From positions 1 through 35,873 of IMG/VR virus record IMGVR_UViG_3300043429_000072: a stretch of 35,873 nt of DNA; one strand, 5' to 3'. The notes under the pieces are model-generated. The model searched no databases and had not been told where the DNA came from. It saw only the letters and a program-made list of their open reading frames with translations. How positions within the stretch are numbered: the first letter of the stretch is position 1; each line of letters starts with the position of its first letter. Shown in pieces: positions 34,023 through 35,873 of this stretch. Both the position numbers and the translations under genes were made by a program. Source of the stretch: a virus.

Positions 34023-34103
34023 GTGAACGAACTAATCGAACTAATTGACATAATCAACGAGTCCGGCAACTTTGACTCAGACGATTATTTTGAAATTGAC
34101 TAA
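34023..34103 (+). CDS. Microprotein, 26 residues
   Basis: A GTG at 34023 with AAGGGGA five bases upstream opens a 26-codon frame ending TAA at 34101-34103. The product is acidic (NELIELIDIINESGNFDSDD). The strong ribosome site, tight spacing after the previous gene (9 bases) and the 84-base gap before the next gene support translation. Function is unknown. Confidence 0.5.
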   Translation: MNELIELIDIINESGNFDSDDYFEID

Positions 34104-34114
34104 CTAATGCCCTT

Positions 34115-34140
34115 GATTACCAGACTAGTTTCTGGTAATC
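34115..34140 (+). promoter_or_regulatory. Perfect 10-base inverted repeat, hairpin in mRNA leader
   Basis: GATTACCAGA (34115-34124) and TCTGGTAATC (34131-34140) are exact complements around a 6-base loop. They lie in the gap before the next small gene. No T run follows (the next bases are TTGGGGG), so this is not a plain terminator. It could be an attenuator, an RNA stability element or an operator. Confidence 0.5.
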
Positions 34141-34187
34141 TTGGGGGTGTGTTAGCACTCACAACAACAAACAAAGGAAAAAGGAAA

Positions 34188-34833: not shown

Positions 34834-34935
34834 ATGCCACGCCCAGACTCAACCCGAACTATCCAAGCAAAGGCTTACACTATGCTATTACGCAAGGCAC
34901 GCAAGACCAAGCAACTAACAGGCAGGGGAATCTAA
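34834..34935 (+). CDS. Basic microprotein, 33 residues
   Basis: The ATG at 34834 directly follows the previous TAA and has AGGAGAGGAGG upstream, a strong ribosome site. The 33-residue product is basic (LLRKARKTKQLTGRG), and may bind nucleic acid. Its stop overlaps the next ATG by one base (TAATG). Both couplings support it. Confidence 0.55.
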   Translation: MPRPDSTRTIQAKAYTMLLRKARKTKQLTGRGI

Positions 34936-35051
34936 TGGACTGGAAACTTACAGACGATAAAGACATTTCATTTGAACACTGTCAAAGACCTGCCTATTGG
35001 GAGGGTGAACAGGTTATCTGTTCTAAGTGTCAAGAGGTAATGCCAGACTAG
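34935..35051 (+). CDS. Zinc-knuckle-like microprotein
   Basis: The ATG at 34935, sharing one base with the previous stop and behind AGGGGAATC, gives 38 residues. A single Cys (EHCQRPAYW) and a later CSKC could form a small metal site. The same frame is open upstream, but only inside the previous genes. It ends the run of small genes before a 549-base non-coding block. Confidence 0.55.
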   Translation: MDWKLTDDKDISFEHCQRPAYWEGEQVICSKCQEVMPD

Positions 35052-35065
35052 CAACAACAGCCAGA

Positions 35066-35098
35066 CCAGCAGAGACCGGTGTGCGACTCACCGGCTGG
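35066..35098 (+). terminator. Hairpin after the small-gene operon (no T run)
   Basis: CCGGTG (35076-35081) pairs with CACCGG (35089-35094) and an outer CCAG (35066-35069) with CTGG (35095-35098), leaving a bulge. It lies 14 bases after the last small gene and before the first array promoter, the place of a terminator, but no T tract follows. It may work with a protein factor or just insulate the promoters. Confidence 0.4.
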
Positions 35099-35104
35099 CA
35101 CGAT

Positions 35105-35133
35105 TTGACAAACGGATAAAAATCTGTTAGACT
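35105..35133 (+). promoter_or_regulatory. Promoter 1 of array
   Basis: TTGACA (35105-35110), a 17-base spacer and TAGACT (35128-35133). The -35 is consensus. Upstream is the GC-rich hairpin and not the repeated element found before promoters 2 to 4. Transcription would start near 35140. Confidence 0.75.
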
Positions 35134-35221
35134 AATCTTACAATTCAAAAGAGAGATAAAGAGTTCAGTCCGGAGGCTTGGTAAAACAACGGAAGAGAAC
35201 CGACCCTACCTGAAATCGATT

Positions 35222-35272
35222 TATAACGATTTGGTAAATGGACTTGACAAGCCAAAAGTTTTCTGATAGACT
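35222..35272 (+). promoter_or_regulatory. Promoter 2 of array with upstream element
   Basis: TTGACA (35244-35249), 17 bases, TAGACT (35267-35272). The 17-base upstream element at 35222-35238 begins TATAACGATTTGGTAA and ends 5 bases before the -35. The 31 bases from the -35 match promoter 5 at 26 positions. Confidence 0.75.
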
Positions 35273-35294
35273 TAGTTTGATACCCAATTTATTG

Positions 35295-35345
35295 TATAAC
35301 AATTAGATAACAAGACTTGACAAAGCGCTCGCCGTATGGTATGCC
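35295..35345 (+). promoter_or_regulatory. Promoter 3 of array with upstream element
   Basis: TTGACA (35317-35322), 17 bases, TATGCC (35340-35345). The upstream element at 35295-35311 reads TATAACAATTAGATAAC, again ending 5 bases before the -35. The -10 is weaker than in the others. Confidence 0.65.
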
Positions 35346-35353
35346 AAACTATT

Positions 35354-35404
35354 TATAACAATTTGATAACAACGCTTGACTTTTGGAATGTTTTGTGCTA
35401 AGTA
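35354..35404 (+). promoter_or_regulatory. Promoter 4 of array with upstream element
   Basis: TTGACT (35376-35381), 17 bases, TAAGTA (35399-35404). The upstream element at 35354-35370 reads TATAACAATTTGATAAC, with the half ATAAC twice, 11 bases apart, ending 5 bases before the -35. The -10 is poor, so it may depend on an activator. Confidence 0.6.
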
Positions 35405-35444
35405 TTCTCAGTTTATTTCGTTATTATTTTGTTATAAAAATAAC

Positions 35445-35473
35445 TTGACAAGGGCAAAGTTATCTGATAGAGT
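35445..35473 (+). promoter_or_regulatory. Promoter 5 of array
   Basis: TTGACA (35445-35450), 17 bases, TAGAGT (35468-35473). Upstream is a degenerate TTATAAAAATAAC directly against the -35. It is followed by GTTATCACATAAC, an inverted repeat of GTTAT. The core matches promoter 2 at 26 of 31 positions. Confidence 0.7.
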
Positions 35474-35545
35474 TATCACATAACAACAAAGCGATATCGA
35501 AATATAGCAAGTCAAAAGATATTTCAAAAGATTTTGAATTACGAT

Positions 35546-35574
35546 TTGACATATGGATTTTAGTATGCTAGACT
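35546..35574 (+). promoter_or_regulatory. Promoter 6 of array, nearest the gene
   Basis: TTGACA (35546-35551), 17 bases, TAGACT (35569-35574), with TATGC just before the -10, giving an almost extended form. Transcription would begin near 35581, about 20 bases before the ATG at 35601, so this promoter alone would suffice to express that gene. Confidence 0.8.
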
Positions 35575-35600
35575 TGCGATATCACAACAAAGGAGATTCA

Positions 35601-35873
35601 ATGACTATCGAAATCGGGACACCTGCTACTTACTACATCGGCTCAGACTGCTATGCCGAGGAGGTTGTAGAGGTTCAGACATTCAAGACCGGCAAGCGTG
35701 CCGGAGAGCCAAAAGTGATTACAGTCCGCCGTGTCAAGGTGAACTGGGATTACGGTCAGAACTATGGTGTTCAAGACCAAGAGGCCTTTACACCAGACCC
35801 AGACGGCAGACTCACAAGGTTCACCGTCAGAAAAGACGGTAAGTTTCGCCGAGAGGGTTCAGAATATGGCTCA
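35601..35873 (+). CDS. Conserved hypothetical protein, 3' truncated by window end
   Basis: The ATG at 35601 behind AACAAAGGAGATTCA, the best ribosome site of the region, opens a frame that runs off the edge after 91 codons. The N-terminus (MTIEIGTPATYYIGSDCYAE) and the RFTVRKDGKFRREGSEYG end match a short protein common to phages and plasmids, with no known function. The six promoters ahead imply strong or tightly timed expression. It is probably one of the first early genes of the operon that continues beyond the window. Confidence 0.75.
   Translation, partial: MTIEIGTPATYYIGSDCYAEEVVEVQTFKTGKRAGEPKVITVRRVKVNWDYGQNYGVQDQEAFTPDPDGRLTRFTVRKDGKFRREGSEYGS

Follow-up and report, generated by a model that had tools for sequence, protein, structure and literature searches.

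The non-coding stretch in front of the gene at 35601 of a 35,873-bp viral record is best read as a conserved early-promoter hub of a clade of actinobacterial phages. We hold this reading at a probability of roughly 0.7; initiation and timing are inferred from the sequence. The DNA analysed, in the following called the window, spans all 35,873 bp of the record. Six tandem promoter sites point rightward within the array, three of them with regulator-like boxes at a fixed distance upstream, and a tRNA-like element (TLS) directly precedes the first. If the reading is correct, a large and little-studied group of actinobacterial viruses gains an early-promoter consensus that applies genome-wide, early transcription of the phage becomes linked to a regulator of host signalling, a claim open to direct testing, and a recurrent tRNA-like element of 3'-UTRs, unreported by ARAGORN and Rfam, comes to light.

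Genome context of the array

The virus is a phage of Actinomycetota. Its closest terminase and portal matches are found in phages of Arthrobacter, Clavibacter and Microbacterium (35-44% identity), and the actinobacterial family WhiB is present in 13 of the 17 clade records, so that the hosts are likely actinobacterial. Leftward genes form the structural set (4.7-33.6 kb), while rightward genes encode the primase and other replication functions (1-4.7 kb) and small proteins from 33.7 kb on. The array is placed in this rightward arm, with the small genes on one side and the following early gene on the other. Since neither a tyrosine nor a serine recombinase (integrase, resolvase) was found in 16 records of relatives, whose completeness is uncertain, the phage is probably lytic. 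No DNA-level similarity to phage records was detected for the array or for most of the window, and the search for prophage relatives in cellular genomes returned a single distant match, in Nocardioides. The cultured phages nearest by terminase and portal, Amigo and Clavibacter CN1A, carry neither the array nor the TLS within the first 50 kb of each.

Upstream of the array, the gene for a 33-aa basic protein (MPRPDSTRTIQAKAYTMLLRKARKTKQLTGRGI, 34834-34935, + strand; alignment A1) serves as a landmark, with 56-94% identity in 11 relatives by tblastn. This protein (RPDSxRT...AK) is kept in at least 20 viral loci despite varying neighbours. Another stop-proximal, structured-looking element, GCTAGC...GTTAGCACTCACAACAACAAACAAAGG, which is unlike the TLS, lies between early genes at about 34102-34160 of the window and around position 173 on the - strand of contig L005. 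On the downstream side, a ribosome-binding site, AAGGAG, is read directly at 35590-35595 (+), followed by the first gene behind the array (35601-35873, +; PHROG 33370), which runs past the end of the window.

Six extended -10 promoter sites in tandem

The first-pass annotation had described six same-direction promoters with identical 17-bp spacers in non-coding DNA. We verified six + strand TTGACW boxes, at 35105, 35244, 35317, 35376, 35445 and 35546, their box-to-box distances of 139, 73, 59, 69 and 101, the identical 17-bp spacers at all six sites and the claimed likeness of P2 and P5, which share 26 of 31 bases; no credible ORF was found from the 35051 stop codon to the 35601 ATG. The description of the -10 elements as TAGACT-like is accurate for four of the six (TAGACT in P1, P2 and P6, TAGAGT in P5) and does not fit P3 (TATGCC) or P4 (TAAGTA).

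An extended -10 had been missed. TG-N precedes the -10 at every site, giving the pattern TTGACW-N14-TGN-TA, and TGNTA occurs at offset 20 in six of six boxes and at each other offset tested (8-29) in none. Dinucleotide shuffles of 35052-35600 yielded a mean of 0.0024 pattern sites, and six sites were reached in 0 of 20,000 shuffles. Beyond the array, the pattern is absent from both strands of the whole 35.9-kb window. A generic promoter scanner picked up only four of the six sites.

The features of a SigA/sigma70 extended -10 promoter (TTGACA, 17-bp spacer, TG-N, TANNNT) are complete in P1 (TTGACA-N14-TGT-TAGACT, 35105-35133, predicted +1 A35140), P2 (TTGACA-N14-TGA-TAGACT, 35244-35272, predicted +1 G35279), P5 (TTGACA-N14-TGA-TAGAGT, 35445-35473, predicted +1 A35480) and P6 (TTGACA-N14-TGC-TAGACT, 35546-35574, predicted +1 A35581, with a 20-nt leader to the ATG), all on the + strand and on paper strong. 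P3 (TTGACA-N14-TGG-TATGCC, 35317-35345, +) and P4 (TTGACT-N14-TGC-TAAGTA, 35376-35404, +) are without the final T of the -10 and on paper weak. At the predicted +1, 7 nt after the -10, a purine is found in 84% of 115 distinct sites, compared to 30-55% at the two neighbouring positions; in the window this applies to five of the six sites, P3 being the exception.

Further elements accompany individual promoters. A D element (TTTGATACCC, 35276-35285, +) spans the P2 start point and is conserved in relatives, and an A-rich UP-like element (GCAAGTCAAAAGATATTTCAAAAG, 35507-35530, +) upstream of P6 is conserved in alignment A2 and also present in L031. The motif GCGCTCGCCG / CGGCGAGCGC recurs around P2 and P3, at 35321-35335 in the window and in L011, L031, L034, L046 and L080; in L031 it is palindromic (GCGAGCGCTCGC). 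The stretch behind P1 that would be transcribed (GAGTT..GTCC...ACCGACCCTACC, 35134-35214, +) is conserved in alignment A5 and occurs in two variants, GGTTCAAAATCCACCCTACCC or GAGANAACCGACCCTACCC, in the window, in L090 (4848-4926) and in L044, L070, L083 and L019. As a structured RNA it was rejected, with no consensus fold and single folds no better than shuffles; a protein-binding or antitermination signal is possible.

Conservation of the array in related phages

Relatives were assembled from 80 portal relatives and 20 loci of the upstream 33-aa protein gene. Close relatives have the array in the same location, with order and spacings retained. P1, P2, P3, P5 and P6 lie at +0, +139, +212, +340 and +441 in the window and at +0, +137, +210, +289 and +390 in L090. 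The P1-P2 distance is thus 139 or 137 bp, P2 and P3 are 73 bp apart in all four aligned phages, and P5 and P6 are separated by 101, 101, 90 and 90 bp. Hexamers, TG, U boxes (described below) and the D element are constant in the alignment, and the intervening sequence varies. P1 is aligned in relatives, and P4 coincides with a gap in the aligned sequences of the three nearest ones. The -10 of P3 is also poor in the aligned relatives (TAGGAA, TATAAC and TATAAC), with the U box and the -35 retained.

Near-complete relatives hold up to 16 pattern sites per record on both strands, mostly pointing with the early genes, while the pattern read backwards, used as a control, gave 0-1 sites per record. 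The search of related phages that the first-pass annotation had proposed recovered the array and not the gene: no homologue of the gene at 35601 was found behind it, nor elsewhere in the relatives or viral contigs searched. As this gene is not conserved, the switchboard appears older than its first client. The proposal of tandem early promoters as such is supported by the boxes, spacings and place kept in relatives, by the purine preference across the 115 sites and by promoters of this type in front of other early genes.

Divergent back-to-back promoter copies were also observed, with TTGACA starts about 37 bp apart and an inverted box shared between them (L011 5001/4965, L019 5747/5710, L044 951/914, L070 4734/4697). 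LexA/SOS-like boxes (e.g., TTCGAACAAATGTTCGAA) lie close to promoters in L019, L044, L047 and L070, and none is present in the array of the window.

Phased boxes upstream of the promoters

P2, P3 and P4 are each preceded by an RTAAC-N6-RTAAC box, here called U, which ends exactly 5 bp before the -35. The boxes of P3 (TATAACAATTAGATAAC, 35295-35311, +) and P4 (TATAACAATTTGATAAC, 35354-35370, +) are exact, and that of P2 (TATAACGATTTGGTAAA, 35222-35238, +) is imperfect, its last base being the one mismatch to the class consensus. An inverted copy lies ahead of P5 (ATAACAAAATAATAAC, 35420-35435, - strand). The window contains three exact RTAAC-N6-RTAAC boxes, at P3, at P4 and inverted before P5, and all three are within the array.

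At 25 of 121 distinct promoter sites, a TAAC-N7-TAAC repeat ends exactly 5 bp ahead of TTGACA; other gap sizes between TAAC halves within 100 bp of promoters occur 0-2 times in all. The consensus of the class is TATAAC(G/A)ATTTG(G/A)TAAC; flanking and spacer bases outside the TAAC halves, which were used to select the class, are nearly fixed as well. More than half of the distinct boxes (57 of 110) lie away from pattern promoters.

GlnR boxes have been described as GTnAC-n6-GTnAC in S. venezuelae and as t/gTAAC-n6-Gc/aAAC in M. smegmatis (PMC10704036), and the MtrA box as GtnAcC-n5-GTnAcn (PMC13189361). U has the 11-bp period of these and a direct repeat close to (G)TnAC. It differs in that it resides in phage DNA, in its nearly fixed spacer and in a first base that is frequently A instead of the G of the published half-site. 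With no OmpR-type DNA-binding domain found in the 17 phage records, any protein of that family reading U would come from the host. We tentatively propose from this resemblance that U is a box for a host OmpR-family regulator, with MtrA or GlnR as the best candidates, a proposal that we regard as somewhat less probable than its opposite. P3, with its recurrently poor -10, may need an activator or may be a binding site only.

A tRNA-like element behind stop codons

Directly before P1, a TLS of about 42 nt (35060-35101, +) starts 8 nt past the stop codon at 35051. It consists of an acceptor stem (35060-35064/35095-35099) and a T-stem (35076-35081/35089-35094) closed by the T-loop TGCGACT, one base off the tRNA pattern TTCRANY, and has an 11-nt linker in place of the D and anticodon arms. 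Two size classes are seen in relatives: one has a 5-bp acceptor, an 11-nt linker and a 6-bp T-stem, and the other a 6-bp acceptor, a linker of 17-18 nt that possibly forms a short D-arm-like hairpin, and a 5-bp T-stem.

Across ten sequences, a founding set partly collected by a search that itself demanded pairing, 95.5% of cells are paired and 7 of 11 pairs show two-sided changes, values far above those of shuffles and slid controls. A covariance model matched sequences outside its training set in L034, L066, L011 (two), L092 and L031, with E values from 6e-6 to 2.5e-3, and scanning by DNA pattern added the further phage contigs L129, L131, L133-L135 and L137. Carriers of the TLS belong to several phage groups, among them mycobacteriophages able to grow in M. 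smegmatis mc2 155, and some phages have several copies (L011 5189-5230, 5834-5880 and 6598-6645; L134 at 180, 1297, 3479 and 4072), with others at L090 4777-4818 and L121, which is Cuco, 738-780. In all 26 copies examined, an open frame stops 3-21 nt before the TLS begins, mostly 6-8 nt. Among random nearby positions, 19.8% have a stop within 21 nt and 2.8% have one at 6-8 nt. The preferred distance of 6-8 nt may also hint at readthrough of the stop codon.

A tRNA gene at this place was rejected, as there is no anticodon arm or cloverleaf and ARAGORN calls none. True tRNAs followed by TTGACA occur in L110-L112, L114, L116 and L117 and were told apart from the TLS by ARAGORN. Rfam gave no match over 34900-35650 up to E=5; at the TLS sites of the window and its relatives it returned two sub-threshold hits, a tRNA-Sec (24.2 bits against a cut-off of 47, E 2) and an implausible one. 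A partial literature search found no published description of such an element. The TLS may represent an undescribed 3'-UTR RNA family, with a likely role in RNase P/Z processing between cistrons, in 3'-end protection or in insulation of the next promoter.

A model of the proposed hub and alternative explanations

According to the proposed hub, host RNA polymerase with its housekeeping sigma factor would read the near-consensus P1, P2, P5 and P6 as well as the weak P3 and P4. All six would direct transcription to the right, along the early arm, and the resulting nested transcripts would start at ~35140, 35279, 35480 and 35581. A host OmpR-family response regulator, MtrA or GlnR being the best candidates, is predicted to bind the phased boxes of P2-P4 and the inverted copy at P5 and to raise or gate output, so that early expression would track the state of the host. 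P6 with its A-rich UP-like element would drive the next gene directly. The TLS can be brought into the same scheme: undescribed anticodon-less tRNA mimics behind stop codons would act as RNA punctuation, and the hub would be wired through GlnR/MtrA-type boxes to a host two-component regulator sensing nutrient or envelope state. We put this joint proposal at odds a little short of even.

The main rival, which we judge less likely than not, is a plain constitutive battery in which U serves the alpha subunit as an UP element, no regulator takes part and the promoters merely add output. The AT-rich U, at about -57 to -41, occupies the position expected of an UP element, and P6 has a different A-rich element upstream. 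A mere UP element accords poorly with the base-specific nature of U, nearly fixed in flanks and spacer outside the selected TAAC halves, with the preference for an exact 11-bp period over every other gap, and with copies that are inverted or free-standing. Far less probable is that promoter-like strings arose by chance and go unused; AT-rich intergenic DNA is prone to such matches, but the shuffle test, the phylogenetic footprint and the reversed-pattern control are all contrary to it.

Two further explanations assign the repeats to protein binding, and both appear improbable. U, D or the TTGACA-flank repeats could be operators of a phage repressor or anti-repressor, like the stoperators of cluster A. 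Repeated asymmetric elements do overlap promoters, and in Cuco the tandem TTGACA-N17-TAGACT promoters lie inside its repeated TTGACAACGGACA-type sites; against this, none of the 16 relatives has an integrase or resolvase, and TTGAC sites elsewhere in the window are without the flanks of the array and without TGNTA. Slightly less probable still is a decoy, as already raised in the first-pass annotation, in which the boxes together titrate a regulator of the host and the weak P3 and P4 are binding sites rather than promoters. The confinement of all exact boxes of the window to the array agrees with that suggestion, as does P3, which in every aligned relative has a defective -10 but retains its U box and -35. 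An array contains just three to four boxes, however, and their phasing to the -35 suits regulation better than titration. The string of short RNAs that had also been suggested was not borne out, as there is no + strand intrinsic terminator within the array and no consensus fold behind P1.

Comparison with known systems

The nearest known analogue of the array would be the Pleft locus, the early lytic locus of cluster A mycobacteriophages such as L5, D29 and StarStuff, temperate phages with repressor stoperators and an abundant, toxic non-coding RNA of ~500 nt (PMC5712189, PMC6550527). Both loci are long non-coding stretches that head the early arm and contain near-consensus TTGACA promoters. 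The likeness extends to Cuco (A5), in which a TLS-type element sits behind gp87, right after the stop of that gene, and upstream of tandem TTGACA-N17-TAGAGT/TAGACT promoters. These are located at 966 (TAGAGT) and 1057 (TAGACT), the latter resembling P1 of the window. In contrast to Pleft, integrase was not found in the 16 relatives and U boxes take the place of stoperators. TTGAC sites of the window outside the array, inspected by eye for stoperator-like dispersal, have no common flanking consensus. The array is not filed as a Pleft member because integrase and stoperators, the hallmarks of that system, were not found.

Phage T7 likewise places several strong host-sigma promoters, A1-A3, in a row before its early genes. 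The array shares this tandem arrangement and differs from it in having six sites, an extended -10 in each, phased regulator-like boxes and conserved weak members. Like tRNA-like RNase P substrates and viral tRNA mimics, in which an acceptor stacks coaxially on a T-arm with a T-loop, the TLS combines these two parts; unlike them, it is intercistronic, begins 3-21 nt past stop codons, has no anticodon arm and is present in multiple copies in some phages. Taken together, the array is a variant of already known tandem early promoters, and what raises it above the routine is its phased, regulator-like boxes together with the tRNA-like element.
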